A stretch of DNA of 31,834 nucleotides, taken from IMG/VR virus record IMGVR_UViG_3300022707_000179, positions 1 to 31,834 of that record; one strand, given 5' to 3'. Origin of the DNA: a virus. The translations under genes and the position numbers were made by a program. Each line of letters starts with the position of its first letter. Within the stretch, counting starts at the first letter, position 1. Of this stretch, positions 2,567-14,205 are shown piece after piece. The notes under the pieces are model-generated. The model had not been told where the DNA came from, did no database searches, and saw only the letters and a list, made by a program, of their open reading frames with translations.

Positions 2567-2580
2567 AGGGCTTTGTTTTT
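2553..2580. terminator. bidirectional rho-independent terminator
   Basis: Stem AAAGCCC (2553-2559) / GGGCTTT (2568-2574) with an 8-nt loop, followed on + by GTTTTT. On the minus strand the same stem is followed by TTTT. It separates the convergent nin-like operon and the leftward late operon, whose last stop is at 2579-2581. Confidence 0.85.
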
Positions 2581-4705
2581 AGCCTATTCTTTTAGCTACT
2601 ATATCCAAAGAGCCAGTTATTGCGGCAGAACATGTAGCTGTAACAGTTGTCCCGTTAACTACCGCCTCAACTCCAGGGTTAACCCCAGCAACTCCCGTAT
2701 TCCTAGCACTAACCTGAATAAAGTTAGGGGTAAAAAGTAACGAGTCAGAGAAGTCATAAACTGATGTTGTGTTGTTGTTTAAAAACTGATTAGCTTCAAC
2801 TTCTAACTCCCTTAATGTAACGTTACCGTTTCTAGAATTGTCTTTTATCCTAGTCCCATTAACGACAGCGCCAGAGAAATTAACTCCTGCGCCTGTCTCA
2901 TCTAATTCAATAGCGTTGAATAGCTCCCCGTTAGACCTGAAATCGTTCCCTGTTATTTGAAGCCCTGATATTGTTTGGCTCGCTACAGAAGGAGCTAGTT
3001 CTATGAAGTTATCAGATGGCCTTGATACTGGACTATTTAAAAATTTATTCCCTTTTATTTGTAATCCAGTACCGTTTAATGCCTTTATTTTACAACCGTC
3101 AAAGTAGTTATTTATCAAGGTAAGGCCAACACTTGAATCCTGAAACATTTCCACGCCTATTTCCATGTCTATACCTGTTGCCATGTGAACGCCTTCAATG
3201 GAGCAGTATTGAGATTTCTCACCCCTAGCAAATATAAAAGCTTCGGCGCACCCACCAACAAATGCAGGTTTAAATTCACAATCATAAGCCTGAACATCAA
3301 AACAAGTGCCGCTGTTATCAAGCGCTGCTTGGTTATCTTGGAAAGTATTCTTTTCATACTTACCGCCGATAACGTATAGCTCATGTGAACTGTTGCCGCC
3401 AATAGGGTTTATGCCGATCGAGTTGTAAGCATAGCCATGACAATTTAACATGTGAACATCTAAAAACTTATCTAGTTGCACTAAGTTAGCTCGGCGCTTA
3501 CCGTGAAATAATATGTTGGACATCATAAACTTGTGAAGGTCAAAATCACCAGTTCCCGAACCCGTCACTATAAGGAAATCATCCATAGTGTAATCATCAG
3601 TGCATGTAATGCAGCCATTAACTAATCCAAAACCAGAGGATACAGGCAACACAAGTGGCCTATCTAGCGTTAGCGTTCTGCCGTTCAAATCTAGCATGTT
3701 ATAACCGGCAAATGGTATGTCGTCTAACATTCTTAAATCTGCTTGCCCTGCAACTTCTTGCTGTTCAGCTACGGCTTTCATAGCTTTATCTAAAAACAAC
3801 CAATCGTCTGATGGGTTAGGTATTAAAAAGCCAATTGACTTCATTTTGTCAGCTTGGCCTATTTCGTTTTCTCTTAGTTTTATTTGCCAATTTTGGGAGT
3901 TACTATCAAACACATTGAAAATAGTGCCGCTTACTGGGAACGTACCAATGGGTGACACATCCCAAGACGAATCACTTTCTGTTATGTGTAATGCTTTACC
4001 CGTAGGAAAGGCTATAGTGCTATTTATTGCATCATTGAGCGTTGGGAATATATAAGCTTGTGATAGGTCGTTGATTATGCCTGTATCTATCTTTCCCCAT
4101 CCGTTATCGTCAAATAAATAACCGCCGGTTCCAGAATCACCAAAAGGCAAAGGATACCACTGTATGCCGTTGTAATCTGAAACTTGACCGACAACTAAAG
4201 CCCATTGATTGCCGTTAAAATCATTCAACAAGTTATCAACTAGTTGTGTTGGTGTTTGGCTAGGGGTTTGGCCTGTTACGCCTAAAAATCGCCATTGTGC
4301 ACCGCCTCCGTCACCTTCAACGGTAAAGCCAAGCGTTTCAACGATATCGTTAATTGTTGGTGTTTTACTGAATGTGTCAATCATGTTCTGAGTAGTAGAA
4401 AAGAACTGTAAATCAGCATCATTAAAGTTAGGAGTGTCATTATCGCCAACATTGTCACGTTCCCAAATCTGAACGCTGTTAGCATCTTCTAAAACCTGTT
4501 TAGCAGTACCCGTAAAAAACACATTAGGCAATCTCCCCTCGCTATCTAAAACAACAGGATGAGTGTTAGGTATTGTTTCTTGTTGGTCTGAGTATGTTAC
4601 TTTTGGAGTACTTGATTCTGTCTCAAAGTAAAACATTAAGCCGCCAACTAATATTTTATTTTTAGCAGTAAAATACTGTGGTACTGGATTTGATGAACGT
4701 GGCAT
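2579..4705 (-). CDS. tailspike with P22-type head-binding domain and beta-helix
   Basis: 708 aa from ATG 4705, which overlaps the upstream TAA (TAATG) and has AGGGAG about 10 nt before it; an ATG three codons earlier is less likely. Residues 1-90 (MPRSSNPVPQYF..., GGLMFYFE, VVLDSEGRLPNVFFTGTAK, VQIWERDNVG) form the P22 gp9-like head/tail-binding domain. About 300-600 is rich in short Asn/Gly-turn strands typical of a right-handed beta-helix (pectin-lyase fold) found in polysaccharide-degrading tailspikes, then a beta-rich C-terminal part. It probably binds and may cleave host O-antigen or capsule; no specific catalytic residues can be assigned. Last gene of the late operon, as gene 9 is a distal gene in P22. 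Confidence 0.85.
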   Translation of the reverse strand: MPRSSNPVPQYFTAKNKILVGGLMFYFETESSTPKVTYSDQQETIPNTHPVVLDSEGRLPNVFFTGTAKQVLEDANSVQIWERDNVGDNDTPNFNDADLQFFSTTQNMIDTFSKTPTINDIVETLGFTVEGDGGGAQWRFLGVTGQTPSQTPTQLVDNLLNDFNGNQWALVVGQVSDYNGIQWYPLPFGDSGTGGYLFDDNGWGKIDTGIINDLSQAYIFPTLNDAINSTIAFPTGKALHITESDSSWDVSPIGTFPVSGTIFNVFDSNSQNWQIKLRENEIGQADKMKSIGFLIPNPSDDWLFLDKAMKAVAEQQEVAGQADLRMLDDIPFAGYNMLDLNGRTLTLDRPLVLPVSSGFGLVNGCITCTDDYTMDDFLIVTGSGTGDFDLHKFMMSNILFHGKRRANLVQLDKFLDVHMLNCHGYAYNSIGINPIGGNSSHELYVIGGKYEKNTFQDNQAALDNSGTCFDVQAYDCEFKPAFVGGCAEAFIFARGEKSQYCSIEGVHMATGIDMEIGVEMFQDSSVGLTLINNYFDGCKIKALNGTGLQIKGNKFLNSPVSRPSDNFIELAPSVASQTISGLQITGNDFRSNGELFNAIELDETGAGVNFSGAVVNGTRIKDNSRNGNVTLRELEVEANQFLNNNTTSVYDFSDSLLFTPNFIQVSARNTGVAGVNPGVEAVVNGTTVTATCSAAITGSLDIVAKRIG

Positions 4706-5754
4706 TAAAACCATCTCCCTATTGCAATTGCGTTTATGGTTGCTGCTGTGGGTTTTACCCCTGATGTATCGTAAACAATAATATTTGTTGTAGTTGTGTT
4801 TGTTGCGTAAGATTCAGACATCAAACCCGCACCAAATGGACTGCCAGAGTTTGCAGATATAGATGGCGTTATTGTTGGGTCACTTGTTACAAAAGCATGG
4901 GGATACGTCCAAGTTTGACCGCCAGAAGCAATAGTAAAATACTTGATATTACACGTTAATGTACCATCGGCGTATTTAATAAAATCCCCGTTACCATTAC
5001 TTCCAACCTCTAATATTGCACCTGTTGGAACTCCTAATGATTCAGTAACAGTTCCAATAATGTCATCCCTAGCATAAACTGTACTTGCTGCTCTTTTTAA
5101 TAAAACTGAATCAAGATCATTTGCTGTGACAGTATTTAAAGCAGACAAGCCTGTAACTTCTAAGTTATCAAGAGTTAAGCTACCACCTATAGAGGACTTC
5201 CAATTAGTGCCATCATCAACACTAGGGTCGTTGCCTTGGTTCGGGCTATTAACAGACTTCCACATATTACCGTTAGAAGTTTGAACAACCAACCCTAAAG
5301 GGTAGTCGACGTTAGTATTATATACTTCAATAAATCTAATCTCAGCCCAAAAAGTTAAGGAGGCATCAGGCTGATTATTTTGATTTGAGTTTTGCAGTGA
5401 TATAAAGAATAAGCCGTTAAACTTAACAATGTCACCGGCATCATAAGAGATATTTAAATTATAAGAGTTAAAGTCGCTAATCTGCTCAACAGAGCCTACA
5501 TTGTCACGCTCCCATATTTGAACGTCATTTAAATCTTTAAGCACCTGTTTAGCGGTACCCGTAAAGAATACGTTAGGCAGTCTACCAGCCGCATCTAATA
5601 TAACAGGATTAGGATTAGCGATAGTTTCAGCTTCATCTGAATAAGTAGTTTTAGGGGTGCTTCCCCCTGCGTTAAAATAGAATACTTTGCCACCTGATAA
5701 GATTTTATTATCATCGTCGAAATATTGAGGTACTGGATTTGCTGATCTTGGCAT
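4705..5754 (-). CDS. second tail fibre/receptor-binding protein with the same anchor
   Basis: 349 aa. Residues 1-92 are clearly paralogous to the start of the downstream tailspike (MPR-S-NPVPQYF, TYSD--ETI, RLPNVFFTGTAKQVL, VQIWERDNVG). Residues about 100-195 hold two Trp/Asp-Gly repeats (YDAGDIVKFNGLFFISLQ...W, then YPLGLVVQTSNGNMWKS...W) resembling CBM5/12-type carbohydrate-binding folds. The C-terminal 120 residues (GAILEVGSNGNGDFIKYADG, GGQTWTYPHAF) look like a tail-fibre tip domain. Overlaps neighbours through TAATG on both sides. Inferred to be an alternative receptor-binding protein attached to the same virion site. Confidence 0.8.
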   Translation of the reverse strand: MPRSANPVPQYFDDDNKILSGGKVFYFNAGGSTPKTTYSDEAETIANPNPVILDAAGRLPNVFFTGTAKQVLKDLNDVQIWERDNVGSVEQISDFNSYNLNISYDAGDIVKFNGLFFISLQNSNQNNQPDASLTFWAEIRFIEVYNTNVDYPLGLVVQTSNGNMWKSVNSPNQGNDPSVDDGTNWKSSIGGSLTLDNLEVTGLSALNTVTANDLDSVLLKRAASTVYARDDIIGTVTESLGVPTGAILEVGSNGNGDFIKYADGTLTCNIKYFTIASGGQTWTYPHAFVTSDPTITPSISANSGSPFGAGLMSESYATNTTTTNIIVYDTSGVKPTAATINAIAIGRWF

Positions 5755-8639: not shown

Positions 8640-9671
8640 TTATCTTGGTACTGTTGCTGCTGGTAATGAGTTTACAGGCTGTGCAATAGCTGCCGGTGGT
8701 GGCGTTTGATTACCTGCAAAAATACCAGCCGCGCTAGTTAAATTACCAAGCAATTGCTGCGTGTTTGCACCTTGTGCTAATGCGTTTTGAGACTGTAAGT
8801 TACCAAGTGATAACGCGTTGTTTGATAATTGTGTGCCTGTGCCTGTAGATATATTAGCAAGTATCTGCGCTAGTTGTGTTTGCTGTTGTGCCGTGAACTG
8901 ACCAGCACCACTAAGTATACCCGCTAGATTACCTGCACCTCCACCTATTATATCAGATAAGCCTGCGCCTTGTTGACTAGCTAAGTTGGCAAGTGCTGAT
9001 GTACTTTGGCCAACCTGTGAGGCTATGTCTCTGCCTGCTTGCGATCTAAATCCTGCTAAGTTTTGACCAGTACCAGTAAATAAGTTAGCTGCATTTGCAC
9101 CGGTTTGTTGGTTCATTTGTGCTTGTTGGCCTAATAAATTACCAATCTGACCTTGAGCCTGTAACCCTTGTCCTGATACTTGGCCTAAACGGTTAAACTG
9201 ATTGCCAAAATCTTGTTGTGCCAATCCAGTGCCAAATCTTGCTAATTCTCTGCGAACATCGCCGCCACCTAACCCACCTAATGCAGCAGATTGATTAATT
9301 ATACTTTGCTCGCCTTGCTCTCTTAGAAACTGTTGTCCAGGAGATGCGTTAAAGTTTGAAAAAGCTTGTTGTTGAGCATCAGCACCAGAAGCACCAGAAA
9401 GTGCCGCTTGTTGGTTGAATGCTTGAGCGCCAGGTTGTGCAAATTGGTTAAGACCAGTTACACCTTGACCTATGTTTTGAGCAGCACCAGCCGATCCTTG
9501 CCTAAGGGCATCTATGCCACCCCTAAAGCCTGTTGTAAGCGCATTTTCAGCACCAGCAAGCCCAAACTGGGGAGTTGGAGCAATACCAGTTTGCGCTAAA
9601 GCCTGTTGTGGTACTCTATTAACGCCAGCCTGTGGCCCTTGAAAATTCTGCAATTGATTTATGTTTGCCAT
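8640..9671 (-). CDS. Gln/Gly/Ala/Asn-rich DNA-transfer protein (gp7-like, C-terminal type)
   Basis: 343 aa of low complexity, very rich in Q, G, A and N and poor in Lys. Residues about 109-170 (SPGQQFLREQGEQSIINQSA, LGGGDVRRELARFGTGLAQQ, FNRLGQVSGQGLQA) reproduce the signature of P22 gp7-like phage transfer proteins: S-P-G-Y-Q-F, then G-x-x-x-x-x-x-L-x-R-Y-G-Q, then N-R-L. Such proteins are mature-virion components injected ahead of the genome. Upstream lies a 184-aa gene that looks like the usual N-terminal half, so the ancestral protein may be split here. 40-nt spacer upstream. Confidence 0.65.
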   Translation of the reverse strand: MANINQLQNFQGPQAGVNRVPQQALAQTGIAPTPQFGLAGAENALTTGFRGGIDALRQGSAGAAQNIGQGVTGLNQFAQPGAQAFNQQAALSGASGADAQQQAFSNFNASPGQQFLREQGEQSIINQSAALGGLGGGDVRRELARFGTGLAQQDFGNQFNRLGQVSGQGLQAQGQIGNLLGQQAQMNQQTGANAANLFTGTGQNLAGFRSQAGRDIASQVGQSTSALANLASQQGAGLSDIIGGGAGNLAGILSGAGQFTAQQQTQLAQILANISTGTGTQLSNNALSLGNLQSQNALAQGANTQQLLGNLTSAAGIFAGNQTPPPAAIAQPVNSLPAATVPR

Positions 9672-9711: not shown

Positions 9712-10266
9712 CTACCGTCCAAAATTACCGGTAAATCTGCCGCTAGTGTTACCGCCAACTGTAACCCCAGCCAAAGGGTTGCTTATTCCAACTAAAGGGT
9801 TACTTGGTCCAGCAAAAGCAAATGATTCTGGCTGTTGCTGCTGCTCTAGTGGGTTTGTAAACTCTGGTAACTGTTGGTTAAAAAAACCTAAGTCAGTTTG
9901 TATGTTGGTTGGTTGCAAAGCGCTTAAATCAACATTACCGCCTAGTATTGCATTTTGTATTTGTGGCAGTCCTGCTAGTATTTGCTGTTGAGCGCCAACA
10001 TTACCTTGTTGAAAAGCATTGACCTGTTGAGGTAAAGACTGTCCAAATACATCAAGCGCGCCTTGAAAGCCTAGCCCTGCATTTTGTTGCGCACCTGCAA
10101 ATAACGTTTTAGATTCTGCTCTTGCTTCATTAGCAGCATCCCTTGTTATTTGTGCAGCTTTATCGCCAGCCTTGCCACTAGCCTTAATTGCCTTGTCTCC
10201 GGCTTTCTTTGAAGCAATTGATCCTATAACTGCTGATGCAACCACCGCCGTAGCTATTCCTGACAT
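9712..10266 (-). CDS. virion/ejection protein (gp7-like, N-terminal type)
   Basis: 184 aa. Small hydrophobic Ala/Val/Ile-rich N-terminus (residues 3-19), then an Ala/Lys-rich helix (KKAGDKAIKASGKAGDKAAQ) and an R-x-E-S-K-x-L-F-A-G-A-x-x-N-A-G-x-G segment. This order (Ala-rich segment, AANxA helix, L-x-P-Y-x-x-x-G) is what opens single-chain gp7-like DNA-transfer proteins. The C-terminal half is Gln/Pro/Asn-rich. Overlaps the upstream SET-domain gene by 13 nt. Inferred membrane-active ejection component. Confidence 0.55.
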   Translation of the reverse strand: MSGIATAVVASAVIGSIASKKAGDKAIKASGKAGDKAAQITRDAANEARAESKTLFAGAQQNAGLGFQGALDVFGQSLPQQVNAFQQGNVGAQQQILAGLPQIQNAILGGNVDLSALQPTNIQTDLGFFNQQLPEFTNPLEQQQQPESFAFAGPSNPLVGISNPLAGVTVGGNTSGRFTGNFGR

Positions 10267-11090
10267 AAATCCCCCTTAATAAATCTGTCTATAATTACAT
10301 TTCTATAATTAACCGTTATTTCTTCGTTTACTTCTATATCTTTTATTGCGACTAAATCCATACCGTTATGATTAAAAATCATTTTTGCATTAGGCTGTAG
10401 TGCATGATTAGTGTATCTGCCTGCTGGTGTTCTTTTATTTCCAATCCTAGACGGACAAATAAAATCACCATTAATTATTTTTTTGCTTGAATAAATTCCT
10501 TTACCCTCTAGCTTTGAATCATTCAAGTAAATATGCTCATAACCAATAGGCATTTTAATTTGATCTAAATCATTTTCTACCACCGACCTAATATCTTTTT
10601 CAGTGGTATTCATACTATTAACCATTGATTCATAATCAGCACGATTGATAACTGTATTAAATAGCTCTAATTCTTCAAAAGAATCTGCTGTTATAAAGTC
10701 CTGTATACTATCGCCATCTTTACCACTAAACGGATGAAAGGTGATCCATGTGGTATCTTCATGCGCGTAACCTGCTCGTTTTTTACCTGACATACCCTTA
10801 AAGCAGTTGTAGCCAGTAAATCTCTTTGTTTCGCCAGAGTCAGTTGATACTGTTATGTCACCGCTAATCATTACATCAAAGTGATCAAACTTATAAATCT
10901 GACCGGTTATTATCGTATCTTTTGGTATGGTAATCTCTCTGCCATACATGCCACCGTGAATATGATGTTTAACAGGTATTTCTAACTGAGGTTGTTTTTT
11001 AGCTACTTCCTCATACCTAAGTAAACTTTCTCTATTTAGAGTTTTGCTACCTACGCATATATCATCTATAACCTTTAAAGCTAAATTCAT
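10254..11090 (-). CDS. cupin-SET fusion protein (putative lysine methyltransferase)
   Basis: 278 aa from ATG 11090, which overlaps the upstream TGA as ATGA and has GGTGG about 8 nt before it; a GTG at 11102 is the less likely alternative. Residues 40-120 are a cupin-like barrel (HHIHGGMYGREITIPKDTII, SGDITV, RAGYAHEDTTWITFHP) of a kind common in phage genomes, with H43, H45, H70, H110 and H119 as possible metal ligands. Residues 192-262 carry SET hallmarks: GKGIYSSKKIINGD, RYTNHALQPN (canonical RFxNHxCxPN), AIKDIEVNEEITVNY (canonical AxxDIxxGEELTxDY). SET enzymes transfer methyl groups from S-adenosylmethionine to lysines. No pre- or post-SET region. Position between tail and ejection genes suggests a virion protein or modifier of virion proteins; the target is unknown. 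Confidence 0.75.
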   Translation of the reverse strand: MNLALKVIDDICVGSKTLNRESLLRYEEVAKKQPQLEIPVKHHIHGGMYGREITIPKDTIITGQIYKFDHFDVMISGDITVSTDSGETKRFTGYNCFKGMSGKKRAGYAHEDTTWITFHPFSGKDGDSIQDFITADSFEELELFNTVINRADYESMVNSMNTTEKDIRSVVENDLDQIKMPIGYEHIYLNDSKLEGKGIYSSKKIINGDFICPSRIGNKRTPAGRYTNHALQPNAKMIFNHNGMDLVAIKDIEVNEEITVNYRNVIIDRFIKGDLCQE

Positions 11091-11341
11091 ATTAAAATCC
11101 ACCCGAACCGCCTATCACCTGCGCCGTTGTCAATATCACGTTTTATATATTTAATGTTGCCTGCCGTTCCTGTTGTATCCATATATTCAGCCGTTATATC
11201 AGCATCAATAATACCTTCGGGCGATCCGACACCGGTTGTTATTAATTGAATATCAACACTGTTTGACCATGTTCTAAATTCTTGTGTTGCAATGCCTGAC
11301 TCATCAACAAGCGGCCTTGTATTGGTTAATCTATTTGCCAA
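11087..11341 (-). CDS. small conserved phage protein of the tail region
   Basis: 84 aa. TRPLVDESGIATQEFRTWSN, then GSPEGIIDADITAEYMDTTG and a GW-hydrophobic ending (FGWILI). I recognise this layout from small phage proteins near tail or head-completion genes and from the tips of some fibre proteins, without an assigned function. Overlaps gp10 upstream by 11 nt and the SET gene downstream by ATGA. It lies where P22 has the tail-needle gene 26, but is far too short to be a needle. Confidence 0.65.
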   Translation of the reverse strand: MANRLTNTRPLVDESGIATQEFRTWSNSVDIQLITTGVGSPEGIIDADITAEYMDTTGTAGNIKYIKRDIDNGAGDRRFGWILI

Positions 11342-12815
11342 TTAAATACCCTCTAATTTGCGCCTCTAATTTAATTATTACCGGCTTAACTGGGTCTGAC
11401 ATAACAAACTTAAATACAACCAATCTTGGCACTCTGCCGACACTTTTACGCCAAATACAACGTTGATTAAATCGGCCAATCTCACCTAGTGATCGAGGTA
11501 TTTCATTATTAAAAGTCTTGCCATCCTTTGAGACGGACAACCTTACAACGGGGTTTATAGTGGTGAAATCACCAACACCAGACTCAACCGTTAACTCTAA
11601 TTGTGAAACAGTTAATACATTGCCTTGGTCTGCAAATGGCTGAGTGGTAACCGTTCTTATAATGTTATTGCCGTACTCTGTATAAATATCCGGCTCAACT
11701 ATGCCTAGTCTGCCGTCTTGAGAATCACCAACAATTACGCGGTTATACGCTGTAACCATTGAGTTAACACGCCATCTATCAGTAATTGGAGCGCCTTTAG
11801 TTGTGGTTATCTGTGAATTTCTCTCATTCCATAAACCGCTAACAGTGTTGTATTCAAATGTACTCTTGCCGATGTTAAAGCCAATGAATGAAGCACCGTT
11901 TTGTGCGTATGAATAAGCAAATGAATTCGCTATTTCTTCATTAGTAAAATCTTGTAATTCTGAATCTATGGCAGTAGTTGAAACCTTTTGAACTGTTGAA
12001 CCACTAAACGCCCATACAGCAGGGGATTCATTAATACCACCACCAATAAACATAAACGTATCACTAACACCTATTAAGCTAAACGGGGCAAATACACCTT
12101 TGTTTATAATGAAACCGTTAATTCTTTGAAAGCTTAAACCTGTTGCTCCAGTGCCTTCAAATACTTCAATAGTTTCAGAGCCAGCAAGAAATAATTGGTT
12201 CTTAAATACTATCGGGGCCACTATTGGGTCGGGGTCTGCCTCTGCTGTTCCCCGATCCAAAGCATTCCAACTTAAACCGTCATTTGAAGCACTACGAATA
12301 AACTTCTTGGTATCAGTAGTAACGATAAAGAAAGAGTTTATAAACACAACATGTTGAGGATTACCGTTAGCATCAAAATCTGTATCAGTTATCTCTTGAA
12401 ATACCGGTAAAGCATCTTCATTAATTATGTAACCTTTACCGCCTGGTACTAAAATCATTAACTGAGTACCGTTATCAGACATTGAAACGCGATCAGTTCC
12501 CTCAATAATTCCTAGATTAACAAGTGTTACTGTCTCAGTGCCATCAATAGCAACCGATCTATCTACTCTGTAAACTGCATTTCCATTAACAAAATATGGG
12601 ATGCCTGCCTTGACATGTGATCCCCTATTAACTTGGCTTAATGTTCCAGTAGTGGCGAATTCAACAATACCAGGACAACCCAATAAAGTGCCGCTAGATA
12701 ATGCGCCTTGTGTTTGTGGTATGTTCGGATACCAGTTAACACACTGTTGATTGCTAATGGGTAAAGACTCAGACTTATAAGCCCCACCCGCTATCGGTAG
12801 CTCTATGCGACTCAT
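11331..12815 (-). CDS. P22 gp10-like tail accessory (packaged DNA stabilisation) protein
   Basis: 494 aa from ATG 12815 (ATGA overlap with the upstream stop; a TTG two codons earlier is less likely). P22 gp10 is 472 aa. The opening RIELPIAGGAYKSESLPISN, CVNWYPN, and GTLLGCPGIVEFA is typical of the family, as are the beta-propeller-like repeated short strands and the GRF-N-R-CIWR-SVGR-R near the C-terminus. gp10 hexamers plug the tail tube beneath gp4 and keep packaged DNA inside the capsid. Its place right after gp4 is as in P22. Confidence 0.9.
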   Translation of the reverse strand: MSRIELPIAGGAYKSESLPISNQQCVNWYPNIPQTQGALSSGTLLGCPGIVEFATTGTLSQVNRGSHVKAGIPYFVNGNAVYRVDRSVAIDGTETVTLVNLGIIEGTDRVSMSDNGTQLMILVPGGKGYIINEDALPVFQEITDTDFDANGNPQHVVFINSFFIVTTDTKKFIRSASNDGLSWNALDRGTAEADPDPIVAPIVFKNQLFLAGSETIEVFEGTGATGLSFQRINGFIINKGVFAPFSLIGVSDTFMFIGGGINESPAVWAFSGSTVQKVSTTAIDSELQDFTNEEIANSFAYSYAQNGASFIGFNIGKSTFEYNTVSGLWNERNSQITTTKGAPITDRWRVNSMVTAYNRVIVGDSQDGRLGIVEPDIYTEYGNNIIRTVTTQPFADQGNVLTVSQLELTVESGVGDFTTINPVVRLSVSKDGKTFNNEIPRSLGEIGRFNQRCIWRKSVGRVPRLVVFKFVMSDPVKPVIIKLEAQIRGYLIGK

Positions 12816-13513
12816 GGACAACCACGCCCGATATTAAAATCAATATTCTGAGGCTTAGCTCTACCTGTTGAAGTTGTTACGTCAACACAAACTTTACCAT
12901 AACCAAACTGTACACCCTCTGCTGAGAATGTAATAAAGCCATCTAATTCCGCACTAGATATAATAGTTAACTTGTCATTAGCGGTTACTGTAAACGCTGT
13001 TATTGTCGCGCCTTCTAGCAAGTAATGAGTAAAATCAACGGTAAACGAATCTATTTCGCCAACATCTAAAGTTTCAGCATCAGCCGGAATAAGCACGGTA
13101 TTATAGAAGTGATCGTCTGTTCCACCTGTAAACCAATCTTCATTACCTGAACCGATTGGCATAGTGGATGGCATTTTAGTAGGTTTATAAACTAAGGATA
13201 ATTTACGCAATGACTTCATAGCCTCGCGTTTATTTGCTCTTAAATCACCACTGGGTTCGATATCATATTGTGGTGCAAGCTTTAACGCTAAACTAAAGAT
13301 AACGCCTTCAATAGCGCCCTCATCAATAGTGATAGCATCACTAGGATTAACCACATCAACAAAGCCTAAGCCGTTATAAGGAATAGTTGCCATCATTCTA
13401 TTTAAGTAGCGTATACCTGATTGAAACTCATTAGCTTCTATTGGTTGCTCGGATGCTTGAACAAGTAACTCTTGTAACGCATCTTTGATTACGCTCTGTG
13501 CTGTTTCGTGCAT
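12812..13513 (-). CDS. P22 gp4-like head-to-tail adaptor
   Basis: 233 aa, longer than P22 gp4 (166 aa). Residues 1-125 match the helical gp4 core: AxxVIKDALQELLVQ near the start, RYLNRMMATIPYNGLG, EGVIFSLALKLAPQYDI. The extra C-terminal part (about 135-233) is beta-rich with Ig-like alternation and may be an added decoration domain. gp4 binds the portal ring after packaging and begins tail assembly. ATGA overlap with gp10; TAATG overlap with the small gene upstream. Confidence 0.85.
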   Translation of the reverse strand: MHETAQSVIKDALQELLVQASEQPIEANEFQSGIRYLNRMMATIPYNGLGFVDVVNPSDAITIDEGAIEGVIFSLALKLAPQYDIEPSGDLRANKREAMKSLRKLSLVYKPTKMPSTMPIGSGNEDWFTGGTDDHFYNTVLIPADAETLDVGEIDSFTVDFTHYLLEGATITAFTVTANDKLTIISSAELDGFITFSAEGVQFGYGKVCVDVTTSTGRAKPQNIDFNIGRGCP

Positions 13514-13710: not shown

Positions 13711-14205
13711 TTACCAGTATTTTGATTCAGCCTCTAATCTAGCAGAGATGGCATCTTCTTTCTTTAAGAATGTGCCTAGGCTAATTGATTTATCATTTAC
13801 CATAATTCTAGCCCTCCACTTATTCGAGTCCTTTCTAAAATTAACGCCAGAGCTTCCACTTTTATTATCTTTGTGTCTATTCTGGTTTTTGCCATTTACA
13901 CTATGACTTACACTTCTGATGTTTTCCCATTTATTGTTCAGTCCGTTGCCGTCTATATGGTCTATTTCTTTTGGTTGCTCCTTGGTCATTAAAACCCAAG
14001 CAACCCTATGGACATAATAAAACCCAGTTTTAAACTTAAACCTGTAATACACCTTTTTTGAGGTTTTTGCCCCGCAAACATGCTTACATCCAACAATAGA
14101 GCCTACTACGTACTGGTTAACCTTTATCTTTCTTCTTATCTCGCCTGTTTTGATATCATACGAAAAAAAGGAGTTGAAAGAATCGAAATCTATATGTTTA
14201 GCCAT
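13711..14205 (-). CDS. HNH homing endonuclease with AP2 DNA-binding domain
   Basis: 164 aa. HNH core: YYVHRVAW (H66) and IDHIDGNGLNNKWENIR (D82, H83, N87, N91). Residues 117-160 (SGSSGVNFRKDSNKWRARI, ISLGTFLKKEDAISARLEAE) form an AP2-like DNA-binding domain. This HNH-AP2 layout is typical of free-standing phage homing endonucleases that nick or cut related genomes lacking them and spread by repair. It interrupts the otherwise tight coat-gp4 stretch without splitting either gene, the usual sign of a mobile insertion. Its ribosome site is inside a strong stem-loop, implying low translation from long late transcripts. Confidence 0.9.
   Translation of the reverse strand: MAKHIDFDSFNSFFSYDIKTGEIRRKIKVNQYVVGSIVGCKHVCGAKTSKKVYYRFKFKTGFYYVHRVAWVLMTKEQPKEIDHIDGNGLNNKWENIRSVSHSVNGKNQNRHKDNKSGSSGVNFRKDSNKWRARIMVNDKSISLGTFLKKEDAISARLEAESKYW

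Follow-up and report, generated by a model that had tools for sequence, protein, structure and literature searches.

The window analysed here, a viral DNA record of 31,834 nucleotides, contains a reading frame in which a cupin-like domain is joined to a SET domain. SET domains are an enzyme fold that places methyl groups on lysines, and SET lysine methyltransferases have mostly been studied on eukaryotic histones. The locus raises the question of whether the phage protein is an active methyltransferase and on which proteins it might act.

Gene order and overlapping reading frames

A sequence-only reading had placed the fusion at 10254-11090, within a P22-type tail/ejection block. The coordinates held and the ORF was complete; the strand, which that reading did not give, was found to be minus, and the plus strand is full of stops there. 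The relevant features are:

8640..9671, minus strand, 343-aa DNA-ejection protein (phrog_598), with zero lysine
9712..10266, minus strand, 184-aa ejection-type protein (conserved N-terminus, MSGIATA), its start overlapping the cupin-SET end
10254..11090, minus strand, cupin-SET fusion gene, 278 aa (PHROG 34170)
10254..10277, minus strand, end of the SET gene (KGDLCQE*), DNA AAGGGGGATTTATGTCAGGAATAG, in which the next gene's start (MSGI) and a purine-rich, probable ribosome site also lie
10299..10544, minus strand, minimal SET domain, residues ~183-264 (SxxxGxG 192-198, RTxxGRYTNH 220-229, EEITVNY 256-262)
10545..10724, minus strand, helical linker, residues ~123-182, occurring only together with the SET module
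10725..10988, minus strand, cupin domain, residues ~35-122 (PHROG 12032/24280, 'short tail fiber')
11087..11341, minus strand, 84-aa gene directly upstream, sharing 4 bases with the cupin-SET start
11331..12821, minus strand, gp10-like head-closure protein Hc3 (phrog_578)
12812..13513, minus strand, gp4-like head-tail adaptor Ad3 (phrog_637)

Along the minus strand the 31.8-kb record runs from small and large terminase, portal, two unknowns, scaffold, coat and an HNH endonuclease through the gp4-like adaptor, the gp10-like closure protein, the 84-aa gene, the cupin-SET gene and the 184-aa ejection-type gene to the phrog_598 DNA-ejection gene, two more genes and two tail-fibre-like genes. The PHROG matches thus bear out the P22-type order (portal, scaffold, coat, gp4-like, gp10-like, then ejection genes), and by these matches the cupin-SET gene sits between the gp10-like head-closure and the gp7-like DNA-ejection genes of such a block. 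The same neighbours recur in 172 fusion loci, with the gp10-like family on the upstream side; in 125/172 the gene that follows belongs to a gp7-like ejection family, and in others to smaller families with a similar N-terminus (MSG..). The 184-aa protein matches the gp7-like proteins of relatives in position and N-terminus. The HNH endonuclease gene (13711-14205, minus strand) is inserted between the coat and gp4-like genes.

Many relatives have one single gp7-like ejection protein, whereas in the clade of the window this function is seemingly split between the short MSGIATA gene and the lysine-free gene, whose product is rich in Q, N, A and G.

The ATG of the cupin-SET gene at 11090 overlaps the stop of the gene upstream (ATGA). 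At its other end the C-terminus GDLCQE was considered as a functional tag and rejected, given that the conservation of KGDLCQE is accounted for by the overlapping reading frames: the same DNA holds the next gene's start and its likely ribosome site. Similarly, whether the ejection protein begins with MSG[IV] or MSVV correlates with SET presence, and this was considered as a SET-dependent substrate signature. This too was rejected because the endings CQE*, CQQ* and CQ* overlie, and force, MSGI, MSAV and MSVV, respectively. The overlap suggests translational coupling and no substrate motif.

The SET and cupin domains

The proposed fusion was upheld by a Pfam SET match (PF00856, E = 1.9×10−8, 35.1 bits against a cut-off of 22.4), PHROG matches of the N-terminal half and a modelled cupin fold. 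The two SET motifs quoted in the sequence-only reading (RYTNH...PN and one other) were found in the ORF as given, with RYTNHALQPN at residues 225-234 and AIKDIEVNEEITVNY at residues 248-262. In an AlphaFold2 model built with 53 relatives (pLDDT 93.8, pTM 0.84), the structural matches that this reading had called for were obtained for both domains. Foldseek returned vSET (1.4×10−5) for the SET part, and VIA-align returned EZH2, MLL1, vSET and SETD8 at Z 10.5-9 over residues ~172-271 (MLL1, Z 10.3; vSET, Z 9.4, rmsd 1.9 over 74 residues, 28% identity). A phage-SET profile compared with PDB sequences likewise matched MLL1 (6×10−13) and vSET (7×10−10), and the profile alignment paired the phage NH and EExTxxY with methyltransferase motifs, Y262 lying opposite the DY of MLL1. 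The SET-I insert is absent, with ~8 profile positions in the phage SETs where MLL1 has ~43 residues; this insert forms part of the substrate groove and is widely variable among SET enzymes, and it is no strict criterion.

The SAM-binding residues S192, G196 and G198 (SxxxGxG loop) and N228 and H229 (Asn-His) are present, as is the catalytic tyrosine, Y262. Among 131 distinct fusions the SAM-loop Ser and second Gly are conserved at 100%, as are the Glu, Thr and Tyr of ExTxxY, and the Asn and His of the Asn-His motif stand at 99% and 98.5%, so the catalytic and SAM-binding residues are almost never lost. The longer motif NH-x-x-x-PN was retained by homologues in its NH half, but its PN half varies in the clade of the window (CN, AN, CS). 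The median dN/dS was 0.064 for SET and 0.032 for cupin in 93 non-independent pairs. Residue retention and low dN/dS point to selection for catalysis, and on sequence and model the conserved C-terminal SET is best read as a predicted active SAM-dependent lysine methyltransferase.

The whole protein matches PHROG 34170 (E = 1×10−86), and its N-terminal half matches the PHROG families 'short tail fiber' and 'tail fiber adhesin' (4×10−38 and 7×10−35). The name 'short tail fibre' is taken from PHROG or from database records, and the literature examined gave no proteomic support for it. A cupin beta-barrel was recovered from the model by Foldseek (3×10−6) and by VIA-align over residues ~34-138 (HP0902 at Z 9.1; DddK and ppnP, Z ~9). 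Five histidines had been reported in residues 40-120; we counted six, among which only His42 is invariant and His70 nearly so in relatives. The canonical cupin metal motif G(X)5HXH(X)3-4E(X)6G is not kept (TGQIYKFDHFDVMISG, with one His, H70, and no Glu), and therefore no enzymatic activity is claimed for the cupin.

Distribution and turnover of the SET module

In annotated phages, tblastn gave 64 records, of which only 8 had at least 80% of the protein covered; the remaining records match chiefly the cupin half. Pseudoalteromonas phage PH1 (gp49, 51%) and Rhodoferax phage P26218 (gp30, 27% identity), both cultured phages, are among the eight and have the same full-length architecture with the catalytic residues kept. 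In both phages the fusion is annotated 'hypothetical', and the literature search turned up no study of either protein. The label of one metagenomic record likens it to the PBCV-1 histone methyltransferase. Two profile scans of IMG/VR gave at least 464 and at least 424 contigs, totals that count relatives of the query, and the samples kept were nearly all full fusions. Given that more than 400 contigs have relatives and that most of those sampled bear SET, the fusion is common in this podovirus group, contrary to the rarity in phages that had been supposed. A genome scan added a cupin-only locus in Glaciimonas and four fusions on 32-39 kb MAG contigs, which are perhaps binned phage.

Cupin-only proteins finish in a tail of 27-63 residues, and the fusions mostly have a linker of ~63-79 residues followed by SET. 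On the cupin tree, SET presence requires 11 changes, of which at least 7 are forced by supported branches, compared with 28 for shuffled labels; the SET and cupin trees have fewer than 100 columns each, and the short cupin alignment includes some long branches and one truncated row (L256) whose SET label is unsure. The turnover can be followed in one pair of closely related loci, L009 (SET+) and L011 (SET-), which align at 89% through the cupin and at 77% once the ejection gene begins; the stretch between these two parts measures ~383 bp in L009 and 88 bp in L011. Since the flanks align and the stretch in between differs, the SET module was gained or lost cleanly. This recurrent gain and loss on the tree argues that SET is accessory and no core assembly step. 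Detached SET genes were not found in the cupin-only loci.

The cupin-only locus L252 groups with the SET+ locus L257, and the start of its ejection protein (MTGV) resembles those of SET+ phages; it is perhaps a recent SET loss. The protein directly downstream of the cupin gene has a median lysine content of 1.98% in SET+ and 3.07% in SET- loci, a phylogenetically uncorrected difference that was for this reason left out as evidence. In BPP-1 (L019, 5471-6390) a GNAT acetyltransferase gene, bbp24, overlaps the cupin gene bbp23, and MW202722 has the same pairing. GNAT is another possible protein-modifying fold beside the cupin, unseen in the other cupin-only phages tested, and no Pfam acetyltransferase was detected in the tested neighbours in X14, VvAW1 and BA3. 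The idea that GNAT replaces SET in cupin-only phages was consequently not retained, as its support was confined to BPP-1-like phages and a single metagenomic contig.

Candidate substrates and relation to known systems

The explanation we prefer, with a probability of roughly 45%, is that a tail-associated cupin tethers an active, SAM-dependent lysine methyltransferase, which probably acts on phage virion proteins. The cupin, a member of a family of small podovirus proteins that carry the annotation short tail fibre, would probably place the protein at or near the tail or ejection proteins during assembly. In the SET domain, the SxxxGxG loop and the Asn-His motif would hold SAM, and Tyr262 would serve in lysine methylation. 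Because the SET-I insert is absent, substrate choice probably falls to the helical linker and the cupin. The likeliest substrates would be lysines of virion proteins from the same operon, in the first place the coupled gp7-like ejection protein. Gene adjacency is no proof of a substrate relation, however, and near relatives have similar ejection proteins without SET, so that those proteins do not need methylation. Since close relatives differ in whether they have the SET cassette, methylation would be an accessory and probably host-dependent improvement.

This turnover of the SET module also keeps host targets in play. An active enzyme made late or carried in with the virion could methylate lysines of host proteins (e.g. 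nucleoid, envelope or translation proteins), thereby favouring the phage or excluding others, with the cupin as a tether or host-protein binder. We regard this as a real possibility, though at clearly less than even odds. Repeated gain and loss of the SET module is as expected for a host-dependent function, the catalytic residues are strictly kept, and a close structural match, the chlorella-virus vSET, is a minimal SET named a histone H3-Lys27 methyltransferase in the PDB. Against it, the fusion partner of SET is a conserved tail-block protein, the gene is coupled to ejection genes and lies away from early or accessory genes, and an ejection or targeting signal was not recognised in the cupin-SET protein. 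Fusion and coupling thus favour virion proteins as targets, and the pattern of gain and loss favours an optional, host-dependent benefit. It is improbable that the SET fold has become a structural virion module that methylates nothing any more: the domain is very short, lacks SET-I, lies on a putative tail protein and has a variable PN, but such a module would have no need of a SAM loop, Asn-His, Glu-x-Thr and Tyr kept at 98-100% in 131 sequences with low dN/dS. Chance resemblance, a frame artefact or an assembly chimera deserves hardly any credence, since nothing was found in its favour and the same fusion occurs in many independent contigs and in the cultured phages PH1 and P26218.

Among known proteins, vSET (A612L) of chlorella virus PBCV-1 (PDB 1n3j/3kma) is a minimal viral SET like the phage domain. 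It differs in being stand-alone, with a eukaryotic host and histone H3 as target, whereas the phage SET is cupin-fused, found in bacteriophage, still shorter and has no histone target. The same cupin domain occurs in PHROG 12032 / 24280 (BPP-1 Bbp23, BA3 gp0007, Vibrio and Shewanella phages; NCBI PHA00672), the P22-like members of which have it in the same place between gp10-like and gp7-like genes; the named members end in the short tail and have no SET. PHROG 34170 is clustered over the whole protein and listed as unknown function, with SET and cupin unnamed.

ORF62 of Stenotrophomonas phage Ps15 is a SET domain protein of a tailed phage with function unassigned, and the passage on it gives neither a fusion nor a tail-block context (PMC9025141). 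SET enzymes, phage cupins and SET proteins in phages (as in PMC9025141) are thus already known, as is the fusion as an unnamed PHROG; a description of the cupin-SET fusion was not found in the open-licence literature. We tentatively propose, at somewhat under even odds, that widespread podoviruses methylate lysines of their own tail or ejection proteins with a swappable tail-tethered SET enzyme, which has not been described before in phages. More than 130 distinct phage proteins with intact catalytic residues and fusion in the tail block suggest lysine methylation during phage assembly or entry, and if true this would be a virion-modification system new for phages. With the cultured carriers PH1 and P26218, and with sister loci that naturally have or lack the cassette, this is directly testable.

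The two tail-fibre-like genes (2579-4714 and 4705-5754, minus strand) are adjacent and both match the N-terminal family phrog_26190, as if one anchor type bore two receptor-binding proteins.
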